Positions 52,123 through 63,842 of a stretch of DNA of 64,000 nucleotides are shown piece by piece. The DNA is from Roseateles sp. DAIF2 (lineage in GTDB: Bacteria; Pseudomonadota; Gammaproteobacteria; Burkholderiales; Burkholderiaceae_C): positions 1,984,001-2,048,000 of the forward strand of contig NZ_CP049919.1 in NCBI RefSeq assembly GCF_015624425.1. Reading direction: 5' to 3'. Each line of letters opens with the position of its first letter. Within the stretch, counting starts at the first letter, position 1. Both the position numbers and the translations under genes were made by a program. The notes beneath the pieces are model-generated. The model was not told where the DNA came from, did no database searches, and saw only the letters and a list, made by a program, of their open reading frames with translations.

Positions 52123-52980
52123 TCAACCGCCACGCAGCAGCGACAGCACTTGTTGCGGCAGCTGGTTGGCCTGGGCCACCATCGCATTGCCGGCCTGCTG
52201 CAGGATCTGCGCTCGACTCAGGTTGGAGGTCTCGCTGGCGTAGTCGGCATCCATGATGCGGCTGCGCGCGGCGCTCTGGTTCTCCACCGAGATCTGCAGG
52301 TTGGCGATCACCGCCTCGAAGCGGTTCTGCGAGGCGCCGAGCACGGCGCGTTGCGAGCTGACGGTGTTGATCGCGGTGTCGATATTGTCGATCACCGCCT
52401 TCAGCGTGTTCGGATCCGAGTTGGCATCGATGACCGAGACGGTCGGATCGGTGACCGCGATGATCGCCGGGTCCTGGGTCATGTCGACCGTGACCACGTC
52501 GATCGTGTCGTTGGTGGTCGTGTTCGGGCCGACCTGGAAGGTCTGCGGCGTCGCCGCATCGGCACCCAGGATGGTCTTGCCGTTGAAGGTGGTGCCGCCG
52601 ATCACGCGGTTGATTTCGTTGGCCAGCTCGCGGAACTCCTGGCCGAGCGAGACGCGGTCGGCGCTGGTGTTGGTCGCGTTGCGAGCCTGTACCGCGAGTT
52701 CACGCATGCGCTGCAGGGTGTCGCCCACCTTGCCCAGCGCGCCTTCCGCTGTCTGGGCCAGCGAGATGCCGTCGTTGGCGTTGCGGATCGCGACGTTCAT
52801 GCCGCGCACCTGGGCGTTCATGCGTTCGGCGATCGCCAGGCCGGCGGCATCATCCTTGGCGGAGTTGACGCGCAGACCGGAGGAGAGCCGCTGCATCGCA
52901 ACGCCCAGCGAAGACTGCGACGAGTTCAGATTGCGCTGCGCATTCAGCGAGGCAATATTGGTATTGATGGTCTGGGGCAT
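52123..52980 (-). CDS. fliC: Flagellin (paralogue 3)
   Basis: A 285-residue flagellin made almost only of the D0 and D1 domains (N-terminal INTNIASLNAQRNL, LSSGLRVNSAKDDAAGLAIA; C-terminal ENQSAARSRIMDADYASET, NQLPQQVLSLLRGG), with a short variable centre at about 150-205. It is the most divergent of the three paralogues: it has an extra GG at the end, PQTINT instead of PAIINT, and a Thr/Asp/Pro-rich centre. CAGGAG precedes the ATG. No convincing FliA site is found upstream. Confidence 0.95.
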   Translation of the reverse strand: MPQTINTNIASLNAQRNLNSSQSSLGVAMQRLSSGLRVNSAKDDAAGLAIAERMNAQVRGMNVAIRNANDGISLAQTAEGALGKVGDTLQRMRELAVQARNATNTSADRVSLGQEFRELANEINRVIGGTTFNGKTILGADAATPQTFQVGPNTTTNDTIDVVTVDMTQDPAIIAVTDPTVSVIDANSDPNTLKAVIDNIDTAINTVSSQRAVLGASQNRFEAVIANLQISVENQSAARSRIMDADYASETSNLSRAQILQQAGNAMVAQANQLPQQVLSLLRGG

Positions 52981-53084
52981 TTCAGCACTCCTGCAGTTGC
53001 GTTCAGTCCCGGCCTGATCTTAAAAACCTGTCTCAGTCTCAGGCCGGGGTCCTCGGCGCTCCATGCGCATGAAGGACTGGCCCT

Positions 53085-53119
53085 GTCCGGGTCCGGGCGC
53101 GTTTTCACGAACCCGATGG
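53085..53119 (-). promoter_or_regulatory. Flagellin leader element, weak copy (paralogue 3)
   Basis: On the minus strand CCATCGGGTT, then a hairpin with stem CGTG/CGCG and loop AAAA, then GGACCCGG. It resembles the leaders of the other two flagellin genes but is less well conserved. Confidence 0.35.
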
Positions 53120-53179
53120 AGCGAATTCTGCGAGTGCTGTGTCGTTTCAAAAGCCCGATTAAGCCGTCAAACCACGGCC

Positions 53180-53217
53180 AAAAAGAAAGAGTCGGGCCTT
53201 GCTGCTGAAGGCCCGAC
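53180..53217 (-). terminator. Terminator of flagellin paralogue 2
   Basis: Read on the minus strand, a perfect 10-bp stem GTCGGGCCTT/AAGGCCCGAC with a 7-base loop is followed by TCTTTCTTTTT. Confidence 0.88.
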
Positions 53218-53250
53218 GCGGGGATGGCGCGAGGCGCGCCACCGACTCGC

Positions 53251-54108
53251 TTACTGCAGCAGACGCAGGACCTGCTGGGGTGCCTGGTTGGCCTGCGAGA
53301 TCATCGCGGTGCCGGCCTGCTGCAGGATCTGCGCTCGACTCAGGTTGGCGGTTTCGCTGGCGAAGTCGGCATCCATGATGCGGCTGCGTGCGGCGCTCTG
53401 GTTCTCCACCGAAACCTGCAGGTTCGAGATCACCGCCTCGAAGCGATTCTGCGAGGCACCCAGGGTGGCGCGTTCGCCGTTGACCGTGTTCAGGGCCGTG
53501 TCGATGTTGTCGATCACGGTCGCGATCGCGGTGGCGTCGCCATTCAGGTCGGCGCGGCCGGTGCCCTGGTTGTCGGTGCCGGCCACCGCGATGATGTCGG
53601 CGCTGGTCGTCATATTGGTGGTCAGCACGTCCACCACGTCATTGGCGGTCGTGTTGGCGCCGACCTGGAAGGTCTGGGTGCCGGCATCGGTGGCCAGGAT
53701 GGATTTGCCGTTGAAGGTGGTGCCGCCCAGCACGCGCTGGATTTCCTTGGCCAGCTCGCCGAACTCCTTGTCCAGCGAGGTCTTGTCGGCGGTCGTGTTG
53801 GTGGCGTTGCGGGCCTGCACGGCCAGCTCACGCATGCGCTGCAGTGCATCGCTGACCTTGCCCATCGCGCCTTCGGCGGTCTGGGCCAGCGAGATGCCGT
53901 CGTTGGCATTGCGCACGGCGACATTCATGCCGCGCACCTGGGCTTGCATGCGCTCGGCGATGGACAGACCGGCGGCGTCATCCTTGGAGGAGTTGACGCG
54001 CAGGCCGGAGGACAGGCGTTGCATCGAGGTGCTCAGCGACAACTGCGAGGTCGACGTGTTGCGCTGCGCGTTCATCGACGCGATGTTGGTATTGATGATG
54101 GCGGGCAT
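53251..54108 (-). CDS. fliC: Flagellin (paralogue 2)
   Basis: A 285-residue flagellin, very close to paralogue 1 in the D0/D1 regions (PAIINTNIASMNAQRN, RMRELAVQARNATNTTADK, GASQNRFEAVISNLQVSVENQ). The variable centre is only about 50 residues, so the outer D2/D3 domains are missing. AAAGGA lies before the ATG. It has its own FliA promoter, leader hairpin and terminator, so it is a separate unit. Confidence 0.96.
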   Translation of the reverse strand: MPAIINTNIASMNAQRNTSTSQLSLSTSMQRLSSGLRVNSSKDDAAGLSIAERMQAQVRGMNVAVRNANDGISLAQTAEGAMGKVSDALQRMRELAVQARNATNTTADKTSLDKEFGELAKEIQRVLGGTTFNGKSILATDAGTQTFQVGANTTANDVVDVLTTNMTTSADIIAVAGTDNQGTGRADLNGDATAIATVIDNIDTALNTVNGERATLGASQNRFEAVISNLQVSVENQSAARSRIMDADFASETANLSRAQILQQAGTAMISQANQAPQQVLRLLQ

Positions 54109-54231
54109 GGCTCAATCCTTTCGGTGTCAGTCAGAGAACTTCCGGCGCTTGTCCGGAACTGTCCGGTACTTGCGGTTCGATAACCGTCCGACTCTCGAGT
54201 GAGGCCCGCTGTTGCGGCATCACGTCGGTCG

Positions 54232-54270
54232 ACCGGACCACGCAGTCCTTTGATTGTTTGGACCCGTTGG
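54232..54270 (-). promoter_or_regulatory. Flagellin leader element (paralogue 2)
   Basis: On the minus strand CCAACGGGTC begins 5 bases after the -10, at about +1. A GTCC/GGAC stem with an A-rich loop and then CGTGGTCCGGT follow. Both end motifs are identical to those in the leader of paralogue 1. Confidence 0.55.
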
Positions 54271-54275
54271 ATGTG

Positions 54276-54302
54276 TTATCGACGACACCAGGATTGACTT
54301 GA
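54276..54302 (-). promoter_or_regulatory. FliA promoter of flagellin paralogue 2
   Basis: On the minus strand TCAAGTCA, 11 bases, GTCGATAA (7 of 8 positions of the -10). Confidence 0.65.
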
Positions 54303-54330
54303 GCCCTTGCTGCGATCGCTTACACAAGAT

Positions 54331-54352
54331 GCGCCGCCCCGTGGGGCGGCGC
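54331..54352 (-). terminator. Hairpin after flagellin paralogue 1
   Basis: A perfect inverted repeat GCGCCGCCCC/GGGGCGGCGC separated by GT, about 80 bases past the stop codon. No T-run follows; it is probably a terminator or mRNA 3'-end stabiliser. Confidence 0.55.
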
Positions 54353-54431
54353 TCAAGTGACTTGAGCTGGCGGACTGACTAGATCCGCCTCTGCCGTGGT
54401 ACTTGTCAGGGCCAGCTCGGCTGGCCCAGGC

Positions 54432-55289
54432 TCATCGAAGAAGCGAGAGGACTTGTTGCGGGATCTGGTTGGCCTGGGCGATCATCGCGTTGCCGGCCTG
54501 CTGCAGGATCTGCGATCGGCTCAGGTTCGCGGTTTCCATCGCGAAGTCGGCATCCATGATCCGGCTGCGCGCGGCGCTCTGGTTCTCCACCGAGACCTGC
54601 AGGTTCGCGATCACCGCCTCGAAGCGGTTCTGCGAGGCACCCAAGGTCGCGCGTTCGCCGTTGACCGTGTTGATCGCCGTGTCGATGTTGTTGATCACGG
54701 TGGCGATCGCGGTGGCGTCGCCGGTCAGGTCGGCGCGGCCCGCGCCCTGGTTGTCGGTGCCAGCGACGGTCGTGATGTCGCTGTTGGTGGTCATGTTGGT
54801 CGTTTGCACGTCCACCTGGTCATTGCTGCTGGTGTTGGCACCGACCTGGAAGGTCTGGGTGCCGGCGTCGGTGGCCAGCACGGTCTTGCCGTTGAAGGTG
54901 GTGCCGCCCAGCACGCGCTGGATCTCCTTGGCCAGCTCGCCGAACTCCTTGTCCAGCGAGGTCTTGTCGGCGGTGGTGTTGGTGGCGTTGCGGGCCTGCA
55001 CGGCCAGCTCACGCATGCGCTGCAGCGAATCGCTGACCTTGCCCAGCGCGCCTTCGGCGGTCTGCGCCAGCGAGATGCCGTCGTTGGAGTTGCGCACGGC
55101 GACGTTCATGCCGCGCACCTGGGCCTGCATGCGTTCGGCGATCGCCAGACCGGCGGAGTCGTCCTTCGCCGAGTTGACGCGCAGGCCCGAGGACAGGCGC
55201 TGCATCGAGACGGCCAGGGCCGACTGCGACTGGGTGGTGTTGCGCTGCGCATTCAGCGAAGCGATGTTGGTATTGATGATGGCGGGCAT
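54432..55289 (-). CDS. fliC: Flagellin (paralogue 1)
   Basis: A 285-residue short flagellin with intact D0 and D1 domains: PAIINTNIASLNAQRNT, LSSGLRVNSAKDDSAGLAIA, RMRELAVQARNATNTTADK, and the C-terminal RIMDADFAMETANLSRSQI and QIPQQVLSLLR. The centre (about 155-200) is rich in Thr, Asn and Asp, giving many Ser/Thr sites for O-glycosylation by the transferases encoded nearby. TAGGAG precedes the ATG. It is nearest to the glycosylation genes. Confidence 0.96.
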   Translation of the reverse strand: MPAIINTNIASLNAQRNTTQSQSALAVSMQRLSSGLRVNSAKDDSAGLAIAERMQAQVRGMNVAVRNSNDGISLAQTAEGALGKVSDSLQRMRELAVQARNATNTTADKTSLDKEFGELAKEIQRVLGGTTFNGKTVLATDAGTQTFQVGANTSSNDQVDVQTTNMTTNSDITTVAGTDNQGAGRADLTGDATAIATVINNIDTAINTVNGERATLGASQNRFEAVIANLQVSVENQSAARSRIMDADFAMETANLSRSQILQQAGNAMIAQANQIPQQVLSLLR

Positions 55290-55952: not shown

Positions 55953-56450
55953 GTGGAGATGCCCATGCACGCAAGACCGCAAGCTGGCCTGGAGGCCGCC
56001 CTGGCGCCGGTCGGCGCCGAGATCTCGATGGAGGCCAAGGCCCTGCTGGCCGAGGCCCGCAACGCCGCGTTCGCCGAGGCGGCGCAGGGCCGGCTGGGCC
56101 GGGGCCTGAGCATGCTGCACGACGCGCTCGAGCTGCAGCCGATGAATCATGACCTGCTGAGCGATCTGGCGGCGCTGTCGCTGGCCGCCGGCGAGCTGGC
56201 CCAGGCGCAGGACTATGCCCAGCAGGCGCTGGCCCAGCAGCCCGACCATGGTCCCAGCCTCTACACCCTGGGCTTCGCGCTGTCGGGCCTGGGCCGCTTG
56301 CGCCGCGCGCGCGAGGTGCTGATCCGTCTGGGCGCGGGTGCGCCGCAGGACAGCCTGGTGGCCGAGGCGCCGGAGCTGCGCCCGCTGGTGCGCGTCGAGC
56401 TGGCGCGCGTCGAGGGCGTGCTCGCCGGCGCGGCCCGCGGCGCCGAGTAA
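55953..56450 (+). CDS. Small TPR-like protein of the flagellin-modification cluster
   Basis: A 165-residue protein starting at GTG 55953 with GAGGAG 6 bases upstream. Residues 30-130 form two to three TPR-like helical repeats (LSMLHDALELQPMNHDLLSDLAALSLAAGELAQAQDYAQQALAQQPDH). It has no catalytic motif or signal peptide. It lies 13 bases before the glycosyltransferase-methyltransferase gene and is probably an accessory protein of that complex. The exact role is unknown. Confidence 0.75.
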   Translation: MEMPMHARPQAGLEAALAPVGAEISMEAKALLAEARNAAFAEAAQGRLGRGLSMLHDALELQPMNHDLLSDLAALSLAAGELAQAQDYAQQALAQQPDHGPSLYTLGFALSGLGRLRRAREVLIRLGAGAPQDSLVAEAPELRPLVRVELARVEGVLAGAARGAE

Positions 56451-56463
56451 GGCGCGCCGGCCG

Positions 56464-57966
56464 ATGAGCAGCCCGCCCGCCATCCATCTGTGCATCGTCC
56501 AGCCGCTGGGCTATGTGCATGCCCTGGGATTTCTCGACCAGGCCCGCTACTACCGCTACCAGCTGCGTCGGCTGGGGGCGGAGGTCAGCATGGCCAAGAA
56601 CCGGCTGCGCCACGATGCGGTGAACCTGGTGTTCGGCGCCCATCTGGGCTTCGATGCCGAGCTGCGCCGCCGCCATGCCTGCATCTTCGTCAACCTGGAG
56701 CAGCTGGGGGAGGGCGGTGCCCGCGTCGACCCGAGCTATCTGGCGCTGCTGCGCCAGTCCGCGGTGGCCGACTACGATGCCGACAATCTGGCCGCCTATG
56801 CGGCGGTGCCCGAGGAGGTGCCGCTGCTGCCGCTGCTGCATGCGCCCTATCTGGCCGACGCCGCGGTGCCCGCGCTGGAGGACCGACCGATCGACCTGCT
56901 GTTCTTCGGCAGCATGAATGACCGGCGCCGCGCGCTGCTGGCGCGCATCGAGGCCCAGGGGGTGACGGTGTCGCAGTTCGACGGCCCGATCTACGGCCCG
57001 GAGCGCGATGCCTTCATCGGCCAGGCCAAGGCGGTCTACAACGCGCATTTCTATGCCAGCAGCCGCTTCGAGCAGGCGCGCGTCTCGCATTGCCTGTCGC
57101 TGGGCACGCCGGTGGTGGCCGAACGCGGCCCCGCGACCCAGCCGCATCCGGCCTTCGAGGACGCGGTGCACTGGGTGCGCGACGAGGAGCTGGAGCGCTT
57201 CTTCGCCACCCGCTTCGGCACGCCGGAATTCTTTGCCGAAAGCCGCGCCCAGCTGCAGCGTTTCATCGCGGCCGATCCGCTGGAGCATTACGCCGATCTG
57301 CTGGCCTTCGCCAGCGGCTACGGCAAGGCCCATGGCCAGCAGCGGCCGCAGGAGGCCTGGCGGCCGCAGCGCCTGAACCTCGGCTCGGGCAAGGACTACA
57401 AGCCCGGCTGGCTGAATCTCGACGTGGTCGCGCATACCCAGCCCGATCTGCTGCTCGATCTCGGGCGCCCGGTCGAGCTGCCGCTGCGCCTGTCCAGCCC
57501 GCTGGCCGGCGAGGTGCTGCTGGAGGAAGGGCAATGCGCGCGCATCTATGCCAACAATGTGCTGGAGCATGTGCCGGACCTGCCCTGCCTGATGGGCAAT
57601 CTGCTGCGCCTGCTGCAGGACGGCGGCGAGCTGGAGATCGAGGTGCCCTACGAGCGCGCGCTGACCGCCTGGCAGGACCCGACCCATGTGCGCGCGATGA
57701 ACGAGAACTCCTGGCGCTACTACACCGACTGGTTCTGGTACCTGGGCTGGTTCAACCACCGCTTCGAGGTCGCCGAGTCGACCTGGCTCAACGACCGGGT
57801 CCAGCCCTGCGACAAGGCGCAGGCCGCCTTCATGCGCATGCGCCTGCGCAAGATCTTTACTTCCGCGCATGAGCGCACCGTGGCCCGCACCATGCGGGCC
57901 GACTTCGGCGAGCTGCCGGACGACTGGGTGGATGCGCTGCCCGCGATCCGGCAGGCCGCCGCCTAG
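56464..57966 (+). CDS. Fused glycosyltransferase-like / SAM methyltransferase protein
   Basis: A 500-residue two-domain protein. The N-terminal 290 residues resemble a GT-B glycosyltransferase (LLFFGSMNDRRRALLARIEAQG; a donor-site-like stretch with RFEQARVSHCLSLGTPVVAERG). The C-terminal part (about 300-480) is a class I SAM methyltransferase with LNLGSGKDYKPGWLNLDV as the SAM motif and YANNVLEHVPDL as motif II/III. Such fusions occur in polysaccharide and flagellin glycan loci, where a sugar is added and then O-methylated. It lies between flagellin and flhDC genes; the acceptor is inferred from that. Confidence 0.75.
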   Translation: MSSPPAIHLCIVQPLGYVHALGFLDQARYYRYQLRRLGAEVSMAKNRLRHDAVNLVFGAHLGFDAELRRRHACIFVNLEQLGEGGARVDPSYLALLRQSAVADYDADNLAAYAAVPEEVPLLPLLHAPYLADAAVPALEDRPIDLLFFGSMNDRRRALLARIEAQGVTVSQFDGPIYGPERDAFIGQAKAVYNAHFYASSRFEQARVSHCLSLGTPVVAERGPATQPHPAFEDAVHWVRDEELERFFATRFGTPEFFAESRAQLQRFIAADPLEHYADLLAFASGYGKAHGQQRPQEAWRPQRLNLGSGKDYKPGWLNLDVVAHTQPDLLLDLGRPVELPLRLSSPLAGEVLLEEGQCARIYANNVLEHVPDLPCLMGNLLRLLQDGGELEIEVPYERALTAWQDPTHVRAMNENSWRYYTDWFWYLGWFNHRFEVAESTWLNDRVQPCDKAQAAFMRMRLRKIFTSAHERTVARTMRADFGELPDDWVDALPAIRQAAA

Positions 57967-57984
57967 CCAACAGCTGTCGTCCCG

Positions 57985-59913
57985 ATGCCCAAGCCCAGCA
58001 CCGCGAAATCCTCCTCGTCCACGCCGGCCCTGCTGCTGAAGCGGGCCCAGTCCCTGCTGGAGCAGCGCCAGTGGGACGGGGCCAGCAAGCTGCTGAACCA
58101 GGTGCTGGCGCAGCAGCCGAGCGACTGCGGCCTGTGGATGACCCTGGCCCGCGCGCAGCGCGCCGCCGGGCATGCGCGCCCCTGGCTGCAGGCAGCCGAG
58201 CGGGCGATGCAGCACGCCAACACCGACGAGCTGGCCCAGCAGGCCACCCTGCTGGCAGTGCAGGCCGCGATGGTGCTGAACGATGCGGAGCTGGCGCTGC
58301 GTCTGGCCACCACCCTGGCCGAGCCGCTGCGCGCCAACCAGCCCGACCTGCTGAAGCAGATGGGCGCGGCCTTCAATATGCTGGCGCGGCCGCAGGACGC
58401 GGTGCAGCCGCTGATGCAGGCGCTGACGCAGAAGTTCGACGACCGCGATGCCTATCTGGAGCTGGGCTTCGCGCTGAACGCGCTGCAGCTCTATGCCGAG
58501 GCGGCGGAATGCTTTCGCACCGTCTGCGTGCTCTATCCCGAGCATCTGGGCGCGCAGGCCTATCTGATCCACCTGGAGCAGCGCGCCTGCCGCTGGGCCG
58601 AGCATGAGCAGCGCTGCGAGGCCCTGTTCACCGCCCAGCGCGAGGCGGTGCAGCTGAAGAACTACAGCCCGCCCTTCGTGCTGGTGGCGCTGCCGCATCA
58701 TCCGGCCCAGATGCTGGAGGCGGCGCGCCTGGCCGCGCGCCATATCTGCCGCAATATGAAGCCGCTGCCGGCGCCGCCGCGCAAGCCGGCCGGCCGGCGT
58801 CTGCATATCGGCTATCTGTCCAACGATTTCCTCTCGCACGCCACTGCGACCCTGATCACCCAGGTGCTGGAAAGCCATGACCGCGAGCGCTTCGAGATCA
58901 GCCTGCTGTCGCACAGCAATGACGACGGCTCGGCGCTGCGCCAGCGCCTGACCCAGGCCTGCGACCGTTTCGAGGAGATGGGCGCGCTGAGCCTGGCCGA
59001 CATGGCCAAGCGCATCCGCGAGCTGGGCGTCGACATCCTGATCGATCTGAAGGGCCATACCGCCGGCAGCCGCATGGCTGCGCTGGCCTACCGGCCCGCG
59101 CCGGTGCAGGTGGCCTGGCTGGGTTTCCCCGGCACCTGCGGCATGGACGAGGTGGACTACATCATCGGCGACCCGATCGTCACGCCGCTGGAACACGCGG
59201 CCTGGTACAGCGAGAAGATCGCGCAGATGCCGCATTGCTATCAGCCCAATGACGGCCTGCGCCTGCGCCCCGAGCCGGCCTCGCGCGCCGAGCTGGGCCT
59301 GCCGGAAGAGGCGCTGGTGCTGCTCAGCGCCAACCAGGTCTACAAGCTCAATCCGGCGCTGTTTGACGTCTGGATGGAGATCCTGCGGCGCCTGCCGCAG
59401 GCCGTGCTGTGGCAGCTCAGCGGCGGCGATGCGCCGGACGCCGAGCTGCGCGGCGAGGTGCAGCGCCGCGGCATCGATCCGGCGCGGCTGATCTGCATGC
59501 CCAAGGTCGGCCTGAACGCGCATCTGCAGCGCCTGGGCGCAGCCGATCTGGCGCTTGACAGCTGGCCCTGCAATGGCCACACGACCACCAGCGATGCGCT
59601 GTGGGCCGGCGTGCCGGTCGTCGCGATGCAGGGCGAGGCCTTCGCCGGTCGCGTCTCGGCCAGCCTGCTGAACGCGGTGGGCCTGCCCGAGCTGGTCTGC
59701 ACCCGCGCCGAGGACTATGTGGAGCAGGTCTGCCGCCTAGCCGCGGACCCGCAGCGCCGCGCGGCGCTGCGCCAGCACTTGCTGGCCGCTCGCGACGGCT
59801 CGCGCCTGTTCGATGCGCCGGGCTTCGCCCGCGATCTTGAGCGCCTGTACGAGCGCATGTGGGCCCGCCACAACGCCGGCCGCTCGCCCATCGCCTTGCC
59901 CGCCCAGGCCTGA
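57985..59913 (+). CDS. GT41 (OGT/SPINDLY-type) O-linked GlcNAc transferase
   Basis: A 642-residue protein: TPR-like helices over residues 10-215, then a GT41 catalytic region (about 270-625) with HIGYLSNDFLSHAT, DILIDLKGHTAGSRM, APVQVAWLGFPGTCGM, DYIIGDPIVTP, YKLNPALFDVWMEIL, and DSWPCNGHTTTSDALWAGVP, all typical of bacterial OGT homologues. It is predicted to transfer GlcNAc or a related sugar to Ser/Thr of a protein. Location next to flagellin and flagellar regulator genes makes flagellin the likely substrate. Confidence 0.88.
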   Translation: MPKPSTAKSSSSTPALLLKRAQSLLEQRQWDGASKLLNQVLAQQPSDCGLWMTLARAQRAAGHARPWLQAAERAMQHANTDELAQQATLLAVQAAMVLNDAELALRLATTLAEPLRANQPDLLKQMGAAFNMLARPQDAVQPLMQALTQKFDDRDAYLELGFALNALQLYAEAAECFRTVCVLYPEHLGAQAYLIHLEQRACRWAEHEQRCEALFTAQREAVQLKNYSPPFVLVALPHHPAQMLEAARLAARHICRNMKPLPAPPRKPAGRRLHIGYLSNDFLSHATATLITQVLESHDRERFEISLLSHSNDDGSALRQRLTQACDRFEEMGALSLADMAKRIRELGVDILIDLKGHTAGSRMAALAYRPAPVQVAWLGFPGTCGMDEVDYIIGDPIVTPLEHAAWYSEKIAQMPHCYQPNDGLRLRPEPASRAELGLPEEALVLLSANQVYKLNPALFDVWMEILRRLPQAVLWQLSGGDAPDAELRGEVQRRGIDPARLICMPKVGLNAHLQRLGAADLALDSWPCNGHTTTSDALWAGVPVVAMQGEAFAGRVSASLLNAVGLPELVCTRAEDYVEQVCRLAADPQRRAALRQHLLAARDGSRLFDAPGFARDLERLYERMWARHNAGRSPIALPAQA

Positions 59914-60081
59914 GGGCCAGGCCCCGCCTACGGGGCGACCGGGACGGGTTTGTCAGGCAATTTCCTACAAGGCGGGCGGGTGGAGGAGACGCAAAGGACG
60001 GATTTGGGCTGATGTTTGGGGCTTGTTCGGATCTTCACAATGCGAAGCACACCGCAACGAATGAAGACCAGGAGCGCCAAG

Positions 60082-60405
60082 ATGAACGCAGACCAAATCC
60101 TTGCCGAGATCCGCGAAGCGAACCTGTCGTACCTGATGCTGGCGCAGAGCCTGATCCGCGCCGACCGCGAACAGGCGCTGTACCGTCTGGGCATCTCCGA
60201 AGACACCGCGACCCTGATCGCGACCTTGTCGCCGGCCCAGATGATGAAGATCGCCTCGGGCAACACCCTGCTGTGCCGCTTCCGCATGGATGACGACCTG
60301 GTGTGGGGCCTGCTGACCAGCCACGGCAAGACCGCGGCCAACGACCATGTGTCGCGTCTGCACGCCTCGATCCTGATGGCCGGCCGTCACGCCGAAGCTG
60401 CCTGA
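60082..60405 (+). CDS. flhD: Flagellar master regulator subunit FlhD (copy 1)
   Basis: A 107-residue FlhD with the features seen in enterobacterial FlhD: all-helical, Cys65 in NTLLCRF (the inter-subunit disulphide residue), and the ISEDTATLIATLSPAQMMKIAS segment. AGGAG lies before the ATG at 60082. FlhD4C2 activates basal-body and fliA genes with sigma-70. The gene lies inside a perfect duplication, so an identical second copy is present at 62212. Confidence 0.96.
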   Translation: MNADQILAEIREANLSYLMLAQSLIRADREQALYRLGISEDTATLIATLSPAQMMKIASGNTLLCRFRMDDDLVWGLLTSHGKTAANDHVSRLHASILMAGRHAEAA

Positions 60406-60439
60406 TCCCCCGTACAAGAGCCAGAGCCGGAGACCGACC

Positions 60440-60976
60440 ATGCGCCAAAAGAGCATCCTGACCGAAGCCCGCCAGATCGAACGTGCGGTGATCCTGATCA
60501 ATCTGGGGGCGCGGCTGCAAGTGCTGGAGTCGGAGACGGACCTGAGCTACGAGCGGCTGCTGCGCCTGTACAAGGAAGTGTCGGGCAAGAGCCCGAGCAA
60601 GGGCCAACTGCCGTTCTCGACGGACTGGTTCATGACCTGGCAGCCGAACATCCACGCGAGCCTGTTCCTGAACATCCACGAGTACCTGAACAAGGCGGCG
60701 GAGCTCGACGAGATCGACACCGTGATCAAGGCCTACCAGCTGTACCAGGAGCAGACGACGGCGCAGGGGCTGGAGCAGCTGTTGAGCGTGACGCGGGCCT
60801 GGCGCCTGGTGAAGTTCATCGACAACGGCATGCTGACGATGACCAAGTGCAGCAAGTGCGGTGGTCACTTCGTGACGCACCCGCACGAGATCGCGCGCCA
60901 CTATGTGTGCGGGCTGTGCAACCCGCCCGCGCGTGCCGGCAAGGGCCGTGCCGCCGGCGGCATCCAGATGCACTGA
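60440..60976 (+). CDS. flhC: Flagellar master regulator subunit FlhC (copy 1)
   Basis: A 178-residue FlhC. The zinc site is complete: Cys137, Cys140, Cys157 and Cys160, the same residue numbers as in E. coli. TRAWRLVKFI and DWFMTWQPNIHASLF are typical of FlhC. It follows flhD after 34 bases. Its codon use (more GAG/CAG with GCGGCTG-type runs) is similar to flhD and slightly unlike the flanking glycosyltransferase genes. Confidence 0.96.
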   Translation: MRQKSILTEARQIERAVILINLGARLQVLESETDLSYERLLRLYKEVSGKSPSKGQLPFSTDWFMTWQPNIHASLFLNIHEYLNKAAELDEIDTVIKAYQLYQEQTTAQGLEQLLSVTRAWRLVKFIDNGMLTMTKCSKCGGHFVTHPHEIARHYVCGLCNPPARAGKGRAAGGIQMH

Positions 60977-61000
60977 GCCCAAGGCCAGGAGGGCAGGGCG

Positions 61001-62032
61001 ATGGCCCAGCGCATCTCGTTGGTGGTGATCGCGCGCGACGAGGCCGCGCGTATCGGGCGGCTGCTGGACAGCGTCGCCCCCTGGGTCGACGCGATGCTGG
61101 TGCTGGACACCGGCTCGCGTGACGACACGCCCCGCATTGCCGCCGCCCATGGCGCGCGGGTCGAGCATTTCGCCTGGTGCGACGACTTCTCCGCGGCGCG
61201 CAACCGCGCGCTGGAACTGGCCGCGGCCGACTGGCACCTGGTGCTGGACGCCGACGAATGGCTGCTCGACGGCGGCCCGGCGCTGCGGGCGCTGCGCCAG
61301 ATGGCCCCCGACTTTGCCGGCAGCATCGCGCTGCGGGACCATTTCGATGGTGGCACCTCGCAGGGCCGCCTGCTGCGCGTGCTGCCCGGTTTCGTGCGCT
61401 ATGCCGGCCGCATCCACGAGCAGCCGCAGCACCAGCTGCCGCAGCGCGCGCTGGACCTGACGATCGGCCATGATGGCTATCTGAACGAGCGCCTGGCGGC
61501 CAAGCGCGGCCGCAACGAGGCCCTGCTGCGCGCCGACCTGGCGCAGCGGCCCGACGACGCCTATCTCTGGTACCAGCTGGGCAAGGACGCCTATGTCTAT
61601 GAGGACTATGCGCAGGCCGAGGCCGCCTTCGAGCGTGCCGCTGGACTGCCGCATCCGGACGGCGGCTGGTGGCTGGATCTGATGGCGCGGCGCCTGTTCG
61701 CGCTGAAATCCCTGAAGCGCCATGCCGACGCACTGGCGCTGGCCGAGCCGGAGCTGCAGCGCTGCGGCGAGTCGCCGGACTTCTTCTTCGCGCTGGGCGA
61801 CCTGCTGCTGGACTTCGCGGCCGACACACCGGCCCAGGCCGAGGCCCTGGTGCCGATGATCGAGGAGGCCTGGCAGCGCTGCCTGCTGCTGGGCGAGCGC
61901 CCGGAGCTGTCCGGCGCGGTGGCCGGCCGAGGCAGCCATCTGGCGGCGCATAACCTGGCCCTGCTGATGGAGGCCACCGGCCGCGCCGAGCGCGCCGCCG
62001 CGCTGCGCCAGGCCTACCCGGCCCCGGTGTGA
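61001..62032 (+). CDS. Family-2 glycosyltransferase with TPR-like tail
   Basis: A 343-residue GT-A enzyme. N-terminus ISLVVIARDEAARIGRLLDS, then LVLDTGSRDDT, ARNRALELA and the metal-binding motif LVLDADEW, all characteristic of GT2 enzymes of the WaaE/SunS type. The C-terminal half has TPR-like helices (LWYQLGKDAYVYEDYAQAEAAFERAAG). CCAGGAGGGCAGGGCG provides a strong ribosome-binding site. It sits between two identical flhDC copies, 25 bases after the first, so it is probably co-transcribed with flhDC. The likely role is glycan assembly on flagellin. Confidence 0.85.
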   Translation: MAQRISLVVIARDEAARIGRLLDSVAPWVDAMLVLDTGSRDDTPRIAAAHGARVEHFAWCDDFSAARNRALELAAADWHLVLDADEWLLDGGPALRALRQMAPDFAGSIALRDHFDGGTSQGRLLRVLPGFVRYAGRIHEQPQHQLPQRALDLTIGHDGYLNERLAAKRGRNEALLRADLAQRPDDAYLWYQLGKDAYVYEDYAQAEAAFERAAGLPHPDGGWWLDLMARRLFALKSLKRHADALALAEPELQRCGESPDFFFALGDLLLDFAADTPAQAEALVPMIEEAWQRCLLLGERPELSGAVAGRGSHLAAHNLALLMEATGRAERAAALRQAYPAPV

Positions 62033-62211
62033 CATCCGACACGCTCGCCCGGGAGGGCGGGGTGGTGCGGGTGACAGCGTTGTCAGGCAATTTCCTACAA
62101 GGCGGGCGGGTGGAGGAGACGCAAAGGACGGATTTGGGCTGATGTTTGGGGCTTGTTCGGATCTTCACAATGCGAAGCACACCGCAACGAATGAAGACCA
62201 GGAGCGCCAAG

Positions 62212-62535
62212 ATGAACGCAGACCAAATCCTTGCCGAGATCCGCGAAGCGAACCTGTCGTACCTGATGCTGGCGCAGAGCCTGATCCGCGCCGACCGCGA
62301 ACAGGCGCTGTACCGTCTGGGCATCTCCGAAGACACCGCGACCCTGATCGCGACCTTGTCGCCGGCCCAGATGATGAAGATCGCCTCGGGCAACACCCTG
62401 CTGTGCCGCTTCCGCATGGATGACGACCTGGTGTGGGGCCTGCTGACCAGCCACGGCAAGACCGCGGCCAACGACCATGTGTCGCGTCTGCACGCCTCGA
62501 TCCTGATGGCCGGCCGTCACGCCGAAGCTGCCTGA
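62212..62535 (+). CDS. flhD: FlhD (copy 2, identical)
   Basis: The protein and nucleotide sequence are the same as copy 1, including the upstream 132 bases, so both copies should be expressed and regulated alike unless read-through differs. Upstream lies the GT2 gene rather than the GT41 gene, separated by a CGCCC/GGGCG hairpin. Confidence 0.95.
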   Translation: MNADQILAEIREANLSYLMLAQSLIRADREQALYRLGISEDTATLIATLSPAQMMKIASGNTLLCRFRMDDDLVWGLLTSHGKTAANDHVSRLHASILMAGRHAEAA

Positions 62536-62569
62536 TCCCCCGTACAAGAGCCAGAGCCGGAGACCGACC

Positions 62570-63106
62570 ATGCGCCAAAAGAGCATCCTGACCGAAGCCC
62601 GCCAGATCGAACGTGCGGTGATCCTGATCAATCTGGGGGCGCGGCTGCAAGTGCTGGAGTCGGAGACGGACCTGAGCTACGAGCGGCTGCTGCGCCTGTA
62701 CAAGGAAGTGTCGGGCAAGAGCCCGAGCAAGGGCCAACTGCCGTTCTCGACGGACTGGTTCATGACCTGGCAGCCGAACATCCACGCGAGCCTGTTCCTG
62801 AACATCCACGAGTACCTGAACAAGGCGGCGGAGCTCGACGAGATCGACACCGTGATCAAGGCCTACCAGCTGTACCAGGAGCAGACGACGGCGCAGGGGC
62901 TGGAGCAGCTGTTGAGCGTGACGCGGGCCTGGCGCCTGGTGAAGTTCATCGACAACGGCATGCTGACGATGACCAAGTGCAGCAAGTGCGGTGGTCACTT
63001 CGTGACGCACCCGCACGAGATCGCGCGCCACTATGTGTGCGGGCTGTGCAACCCGCCCGCGCGTGCCGGCAAGGGCCGTGCCGCCGGCGGCATCCAGATG
63101 CACTGA
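62570..63106 (+). CDS. flhC: FlhC (copy 2, identical)
   Basis: Identical to copy 1, with all four zinc cysteines. The absence of any substitution, even at third codon positions or in the spacer, points to a very recent duplication or continuing gene conversion. It is followed directly by a membrane-anchored methyltransferase gene. Confidence 0.95.
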   Translation: MRQKSILTEARQIERAVILINLGARLQVLESETDLSYERLLRLYKEVSGKSPSKGQLPFSTDWFMTWQPNIHASLFLNIHEYLNKAAELDEIDTVIKAYQLYQEQTTAQGLEQLLSVTRAWRLVKFIDNGMLTMTKCSKCGGHFVTHPHEIARHYVCGLCNPPARAGKGRAAGGIQMH

Positions 63107-63119
63107 GCACTGCACGCCC

Positions 63120-63842
63120 TTGAGCCTGCTTCTGACCTGGCCGCTGCCCGCGCTGTTCAGCTGGGGCGCGGCCTGGCTGCTTTTCATGGGCCTGACGCCG
63201 CCCCTGGGTGCGCTGCCGGCGCTGCTGCTGGCGGCCCTGGCGGGCCTGGCCTTAAGCCTGCTGCAGACGCAGCGCTGGCGCCGGCTGATCGTCGCGGCCG
63301 GCTTCCCGGCCTCGCTGCTGGCCAGCGGCCTGGGCGCGGCGCTGCCGGCCTGGGTCTGGCTGCTGCCGCTGGCTCTGCTGGCCCTGGCCTATCCGCAGCG
63401 CAGCTGGCGCGACGCCCCGCTGTTTCCGACCCCGGCCGGCGCGCTGGACGAGCTGGCCGCGATCGCCCCGCTGCCCGAGGGTGCGCCGGTGCTGGACGCC
63501 GGCTGCGGCCTCGGCCATGGCCTGCGCGCGCTGCGCCGCGCCTACCCGCGGGCGAGGCTGGAGGGCGTCGAATGGAGCCCGCTGCTGGCGCGGCTGGCCG
63601 CCTGGTCCTGCCCCTGGGCGCGGGTCTGGCGCGGCGACATGTGGGCGGCGGACTGGCGCGCCTACCGCATGGTCTATCTGTTCCAGCGCCCGGAGTCGAT
63701 GCCGCAGGCGCTGGCCAAGGCGCGCGCCGAGCTGGGCTCCGGCTGCTGGCTGGTCAGCCTGGACTTCGAACTGGAGGGCTGCGAGCCGCTGACCCGACTG
63801 CCGGCAGGACGTCACGAGCTGTGGGTCTACCGCTGGCCCTGA
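63120..63842 (+). CDS. Membrane-anchored class I SAM methyltransferase-like protein
   Basis: About 240 residues from a TTG at 63120; the frame runs back into flhC, and the first internal ATG is at 63186. Three hydrophobic segments (LLLTWPLPALFSWGAAWLLF; ALPALLLAALAGLALSLL; a third near 65-95) precede a methyltransferase domain with VLDAGCGLGHGLRAL (SAM motif I) and LEGVEWSPLLA (motif II). It ends with the short HELWVYRW. There is no ribosome-binding site before the TTG, and the border of the duplicated segment lies 11 bases upstream, so the native start may have been lost. A role near motA and flhDC suggests lipid or glycan modification, but that is inference. Confidence 0.7.
   Translation: MSLLLTWPLPALFSWGAAWLLFMGLTPPLGALPALLLAALAGLALSLLQTQRWRRLIVAAGFPASLLASGLGAALPAWVWLLPLALLALAYPQRSWRDAPLFPTPAGALDELAAIAPLPEGAPVLDAGCGLGHGLRALRRAYPRARLEGVEWSPLLARLAAWSCPWARVWRGDMWAADWRAYRMVYLFQRPESMPQALAKARAELGSGCWLVSLDFELEGCEPLTRLPAGRHELWVYRWP

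Follow-up and report, generated by a model that had tools for sequence, protein, structure and literature searches.

The window, a stretch of 64,000 nucleotides from the genome of Roseateles sp. DAIF2 (contig NZ_CP049919.1, positions 1,984,001 to 2,048,000), carries two complete and identical copies of the flhDC operon on the two sides of a glycosyltransferase gene. Comparison of this locus with its relatives, which is a comparison of sequences, indicates that the pair is very probably a case of concerted evolution: an old flhDC duplication whose copies have been kept alike by repeated gene conversion. The genes and sites of the locus are the following, in window coordinates (bp, base pairs; aa, amino acids).

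59950..60978, plus strand: repeat copy 1 (operator-like dyad, leader, flhD1, flhC1) of an exact 1,029-bp repeat
59950..59970, plus strand: 21-bp interrupted dyad TTGTCAGG-N5-TCCTACAA 5' of flhD1, a putative operator (exact match)
60082..60405, plus strand: flhD copy 1, 107 aa (PF05247, NF002783)
60440..60976, plus strand: flhC copy 1, 178 aa (PF05280, NF009365)
61001..62032, plus strand: glycosyltransferase family 2 gene (GT2), 343 aa, between the copies (PF00535)
62080..63108, plus strand: repeat copy 2 (operator-like dyad, leader, flhD2, flhC2) of the exact 1,029-bp repeat
62080..62100, plus strand: identical 21-bp dyad 5' of flhD2, a putative operator (exact match)
62212..62535, plus strand: flhD copy 2, identical to copy 1
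62570..63106, plus strand: flhC copy 2, identical to copy 1
63120..63842, plus strand: methyltransferase-like gene (MT), right flank (weak PF13489/PF13649 matches, under cut-off); the TTG start at 63120 is a presumed one, and the longest frame begins at 63033

A preliminary description of this DNA had reported two identical flhDC operons without any difference between them, and this is borne out: the maximal exact direct repeat (59950-60978 and 62080-63108, offset 2,130) has 0 mismatches in 1,029 bp. Each copy contains 132 bp 5' of flhD, flhD, a 34-bp spacer, flhC and 2 bp past the stop codon, and identity ends sharply at both edges. The copies are separated by 1,101 bp, in which GT2 lies. FlhD matches PF05247 with 138 bits and FlhC matches PF05280 with 285 bits, the NCBIfam equivalogs are over cut-off as well, and the two genes are adjacent with flhD first, as the FlhDC family assignment demands. 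The FlhC translation has two CxxC pairs (CSKC and CGLC), which we take to be a zinc site. The host genome consists of one contig of 6,010,585 bp and contains exactly two FlhC matches at E ≤ 0.001, both of them in the repeat. A sigma-70-type scan of 59850-63300 found no promoter.

To place the pair among its relatives, FlhC was searched for in 399 genomes of the family at a match cut-off of E ≤ 1e-30. Matches were found in 283 of the 399, and 25 of the matched genomes have at least two. Two copies lie less than 5 kb apart on one contig in 13 of these 25, the window genome included; the remaining 12 have copies on separate contigs, at contig ends or far apart on one contig (32 kb in G070, 1.18 Mb in G184), or, in G353, a single flhC that looks broken (G353:C11:736067-736595) and is read in two overlapping frames, probably through a frameshift or an error in sequencing. 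The second source was a named genome collection, from which the best 78 loci were taken. Loci that repeated those of the genomes with G numbers, as judged by equal pair measurements (L082, L084, L099, L100, L109, L133 and L138), were dropped before counting. The 21 different two-copy loci that were compared come from the window, 12 genomes with G numbers and 8 named records, and belong to Roseateles, Mitsuaria, Paucibacter and Pelomonas kin.

The matching synteny looked for in concerted evolution is present at these loci. The order flhDC-GT2-flhDC-MT-motA-motB is found in 19 of the 21, window included, with a GT2 homologue between the copies in 19 of 21 loci (18 of 20 without the window) and MT and motA 3' of copy 2 in 20 of 21. 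The G009 copies stand 284 bp from each other with no GT2 in between. In G380 a gene of glycosyltransferase family 41 (GT41) type stands between the copies and GT2 comes after copy 2, and the contig stops before the point where MT and motA would follow. The between-species differences of GT2, MT, MotA and MotB are those expected of orthologues, and trees of GT2 and of MT-MotA-MotB, made by a quick method with only Shimodaira-Hasegawa-like approximate likelihood ratio test (SH-aLRT) support, place the window with its congener. Since this synteny is shared across several named genera, the duplication is old; a complete flhDC operon would already have stood on both sides of GT2 in the ancestor of Roseateles, Mitsuaria, Paucibacter and Pelomonas. 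The preliminary description had offered a very recent duplication as one explanation, and perfect identity over 1,029 bp, non-coding DNA included, is indeed what a recent tandem duplication in the window strain or species would leave. However, the same intervening and flanking genes recur in 18 of the 20 other two-copy loci from several named genera, and the congener G001 holds its own, different, identical pair. Recent duplication is thus very unlikely.

Single flhDC operons were also found at related loci, where one-copy status refers to the fetched locus stretch and not to the whole genome. The Rhizobacter and Piscinibacter loci have one flhDC, adjoining motAB. In L124 a single flhDC has GT2 on its right and in L105 a single flhDC has GT2 on its left; both look like loss of one copy. 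GT2 and one flhDC copy are both missing at L092 and L098. Paucibacter PLA-PC-4 and Burkholderiales C2, which are sister to the window's genus in the flanking-gene tree (SH-aLRT 95), have flhDC-MT at the locus with GT2 missing there, an order that would be the product expected of recombination between direct repeats. We can only infer this GT2-deletion step, because the same order without GT2 is found also outside that clade (L093). The survey of relatives for single versus double flhDC, which the preliminary description had proposed, found both states; the arrangement shared by the two-copy loci speaks against a very recent duplication. One-flhDC relatives in such several forms (L124; L105; L092 and L098) might also be read as recurrent loss, each time followed by re-duplication at the same place in each lineage. 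This would require the same breakpoints every time, from near the dyad to the flhC stop and between GT2 and MT, and we consider it unlikely.

Exact repeats are a classic source of assembly error, and contigs end inside flhC in several relatives: L074/L075 (G002), L079, L104, L108 and L200/L201. At the contig ends of L079, L104 and L108, 112-127 identical bases are shared with another copy (112 in R. koreensis, 127 in PBB2), and L200 and L201 are 99.5% identical over 195 bp. G002, of the same genus as the window, was tried as an extra two-copy case and rejected: its flhC is broken at two contig ends that do not overlap, there is no GT2 match at E ≤ 1e-40, and a collapsed repeat is no more than compatible with its state. 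Assemblies of this kind may collapse or drop exact flhDC repeats, in which case our counts of two-copy genomes would be too low. The opposite error, one real copy placed twice in the window assembly, is extremely unlikely, given the gene-bearing segment between the copies, the one-contig genome, the equal order in other assemblies and the fact that the assemblies of some relatives (G002, R. koreensis, PBB2) break in flhC instead.

Synonymous sites separate the history of the copies from that of the species. In the window pair silent sites are homogenised: 0 of 205 synonymous sites differ, which by a rule-of-three estimate means a within-pair synonymous divergence (dS) below about 0.015. The number of within-pair synonymous differences is 0 in G001, 0 in G060 and 1 in G136, whereas within-pair dS is 0.03-0.40 in 14 more loci and 0.61-0.75 in three Paucibacter pairs. 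These diverged pairs, together with the one-flhDC loci that stand beside remnants of the arrangement, agree with the expectation of the preliminary description that a second copy normally diverges or is lost. Between the window and its congener G001 there are 60 synonymous differences in flhDC (dS 0.37), in line with motA (dS 0.36) and motB (dS 0.41), and dS is 0.3-0.5 between species among the five genomes with near-identical pairs. Pairs are identical within the window genome and within G001 yet diverged between them, and therefore each genome homogenised its own pair after the split. Strong selection on RNA or codons alone, without gene conversion, could be thought to maintain identity, as purifying selection acts on both copies. 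Such selection would have to explain why synonymous sites vary between species but not within the window, G001 and G060, and its probability is negligible.

Paralogues are closer to each other than to any orthologue in 12 of the 21 two-copy genomes by identity, window included, and the same 12 genomes have their two copies paired in a nucleotide tree with 57 rows. In that tree the copies group by position in three Paucibacter genomes, as they partly do in the Mitsuaria group. The approximately unbiased (AU) test rejects the copy-1 rows of the five near-identical genomes as one clade (p 7.6e-11), a value that depends on G136 and G230, because the tool did not constrain the three pairs that are exactly identical (the window's among them). 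A single clade of all copy-1 rows from six Paucibacter-group genomes is likewise rejected (p 0.00017). The copies of Paucibacter B2R-40, on the other hand, are rejected as a pair (p 2.7e-6), which is the opposite pattern at equivalent loci.

Mosaic tracts point in the same direction. The 16 differences between the copies of G001 are confined to the outermost 51 columns of the alignment, after which 1,095 columns are identical; in G060 all 23 differences are in the outer 71 columns, followed by 1,070 identical ones. The G380 copies have 22 differences upstream, then 970 identical columns and 7 differences near the 3' end. R. terrae and the Mitsuaria group have few differences in the middle of flhC and more in flhD, the spacer and the upstream region. 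Diverged homologous edges round a perfect core are expected of conversion and not of a fresh duplication. In G001 and G060 these edges are older than the identical core, which argues against recent duplication and against loss with re-duplication alike. The proposal of the preliminary description that the copies are kept equal by gene conversion is therefore strongly supported by synonymous sites, paralogue identity, the tree, AU tests and mosaics.

Several points weigh against concerted evolution and have to be set beside this evidence. Our first run test counted gap columns and overstated clustering in pairs with spacer indels. It was repeated on coding sequence only, gap-free, with 2,000 shuffles and the 17 pairs that have enough differences (the window pair offers none), and this gave a weaker result: differences are clustered in 9 of 17 pairs (at most 20 of 2,000 shuffles), 3 more are below 100 of 2,000 (under 5%), and 5 of 17 are unclustered (Paucibacter KBW04 846, B2R-40 558, R. 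oligotrophus 312, G009 231 and P. oligotrophus 175 of 2,000). Uneven constraint can cluster differences too. In nine of the 21 two-copy genomes paralogue identity does not exceed orthologue identity, which means that homogenisation does not go on constantly or in every genome. The window's three tandem flagellin genes are only 78-88% identical in nucleotide sequence and are not homogenised; closeness by itself is therefore not enough to homogenise genes in this region, and the homogenisation of flhDC must be due to selection or chance. The window by itself shows just a recent event, its age being taken from the relatives, and conversion is inferred from sequence rather than directly observed.

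If concerted evolution is the correct explanation, homologous recombination between the direct repeats, presumably RecA-dependent, would have repeatedly overwritten one copy with the other while GT2 was retained. The sequence evidence for this step is strong. The latest event, or events, in the window genome would be recent and would span the whole homologous unit. Both copies would be equally expressed, and FlhD and FlhC from both loci would join one shared pool of FlhD4C2, the FlhD-FlhC complex. Two equal copies would give twice the templates, controlled in the same way, and would keep diverged subunits from mixing in one complex; our best guess is that dosage, for which the preliminary description had proposed that the pair might be selected, and avoidance of mixed complexes may both be involved in the retention of two equal copies. 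A further idea is tentative and rather doubtful: that the homogenised pair was held through a multi-genus radiation since both loci feed one hetero-hexamer, conversion leaving the proteins interchangeable while upstream regions like those of the Mitsuaria group diverge and provide two inputs, each under its own control, to the common activator.

Regarding selection on the genes themselves, all 42 of 42 copies have an ATG start and no stop within 107 + 178 codons. The pooled ratio of nonsynonymous to synonymous differences per site (pN/pS) of 21 pairs is 0.077, and that of the three diverged Paucibacter pairs is 0.054. Because of the open frames and the low pN/pS, the second copy is not a relic; as judged across relatives, both copies are under purifying selection in their coding sequence. 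At eight residues the difference between copy 1 and copy 2 is consistent through all three diverged Paucibacter pairs.

Two Aquabacterium kin of one genus, G035 and G184, provide a second system, each carrying an flhDC copy at motAB and another at a distance from it. One frame neighbouring the far flhDC of G035 has counterparts of 80-93% identity in seven other far loci, including that of G184; the far flhDC loci with this common neighbour are L192 (G035), L080, L119, L128, L132, L143, L152 and L158. The far copy of G184 clusters with other far copies (96/94). That of G035 is placed in the motAB-side clade, in a group with the motAB-side copy of A. commune and the one from G035 itself (100/100); of these three, the motAB-side copies of G035 and A. 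commune are nearest to each other (93/79). Over 917 bp, the far and motAB-side copies of G035 share 96.3% identity. This is consistent with one conversion event between unlinked loci in a G035 ancestor, comparable to those proposed for the linked pair, and a homogenised pair may have been reached more than once, linked in the Roseateles group and unlinked in Aquabacterium kin. Further pairs, in G029, G070, G103, G142, G218, G270 and G274, are about 73-96% identical in flhDC stretches, and the G265 pair, at contig ends, is 99.5% identical over 195 bp.

The repeat of the window starts at the first base of its dyad. The general form of this dyad, TTGTAGGA-N5-CCTGACAA or its reverse complement, occurs within 320 nucleotides 5' of flhD in 106 of 108 regions with at most 4 mismatches, and in 1.6% of shuffled regions. 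The pattern was shaped on these upstream regions, of which at least one genome is counted twice (L079, L112), and 106/108 is thus a description and not an independent test. Sites within 2 mismatches in the window genome are the two flhDC sites only, both with 0 mismatches; the genome-wide search for further sites gave three with 3 mismatches, no more than the controls give. Both window copies hold the dyad in the rarer orientation (15/106), unlike G001, and the dyad was therefore probably homogenised with the operon. It is likely to be the operator of some regulator, and its halves may resemble LuxR/NarL-type half-sites.

Enterics and many Burkholderiales have a single flhDC operon. The window shares with it the same two protein families and gene order and differs in having two complete copies that flank a glycosyltransferase gene. 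Duplicate tuf genes are likewise two near-identical protein genes on one chromosome that recombination keeps alike (PMC5485169); tuf encodes a translation factor, whereas the flhDC pair consists of transcription-activator operons, each with two genes and its upstream region, 2.1 kb apart round one unrelated gene. Table 1 of a concerted-evolution survey also lists tuf (PMC6053082). That survey names 26 recurrently concertedly evolving prokaryotic genes, whose paralogues are more alike than the orthologues are in five or more species, as judged with synteny; the products of 22 of the 26 belong to stable complexes, and the electron transfer flavoprotein genes are a Burkholderiales case (PMC6053082). 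In flhDC, too, paralogues are closer than orthologues, here in 12 genomes by identity and tree rather than by the pipeline of that paper. Neither flhD nor flhC is in Tables 1-2 of the survey, 'flh' does not appear in its main text, and none of its genes is called a transcription activator; enzymes and structural proteins, with one translation factor, make up most of the genes in the two tables (PMC6053082).

Other cases of more than one such regulator per cell differ from this one, as far as the passages drawn on describe them. Erwinia amylovora has flhD1/flhC1 and flhD3 and hence more than one flhD per genome, but these genes carry different numbers in their names and far-apart locus tags (EAMY_2099/2100 and EAMY_2655) beside other numbered flagellar genes, and those passages describe no homogenisation (PMC5561584, PMC5683332). 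AcaCD of the IncA/C plasmid and FlhDC-SGI1 are two FlhDC-type activators per cell, but they are on a plasmid and a genomic island, control those elements and are compared as two different regulators (PMC4605294, PMC7826253). An engineered E. coli has two flhDC copies per chromosome, the second being laboratory-built and lacUV5-driven and not natural (PMC3595227). At the other extreme, Laribacter is described as lacking flhDC (PMC3180692). In the passages and abstracts consulted, from a literature in which subscription journals were mostly not included, no natural homogenised flhDC pair is described.

In flhDC, homogenisation acts on a master switch plus its upstream region. The relatives form a natural series of identical pairs, pairs with similar proteins and different upstream regions, diverged pairs, and loci missing either copy, with which dosage and paralogue interference can be tested against each other in a transcription activator. 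It is important to note that assemblies can lose such pairs, because the contigs of several relatives break in flhC.

Further genes of the window lie to the left of the repeat.

57985..59913, plus strand: tetratricopeptide repeat (TPR)/GT41 glycosyltransferase gene, left flank (PF13844)
56338: methyltransferase-domain gene between the flagellin genes and the TPR/GT41 gene
52123-55289, minus strand: three tandem flagellin genes (Pfam flagellin domains)

Past the window end, 3' of MT, follow motA and motB (Pfam), flhB, flhA, an SRP54-type GTPase gene that is probably flhF and a sigma-70-family gene that is probably fliA. With flagellins on one side and motA, motB, flhB and flhA on the other, the operons are located in a flagellar region. 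These neighbours and the protein families suggest that the operon product activates flagellar promoters as FlhD4C2. The glycosyltransferase and methyltransferase-domain genes between the flagellins and flhDC (56338-62032) resemble a flagellin-modification set, and the glycosyltransferases presumably take part in flagellin modification.

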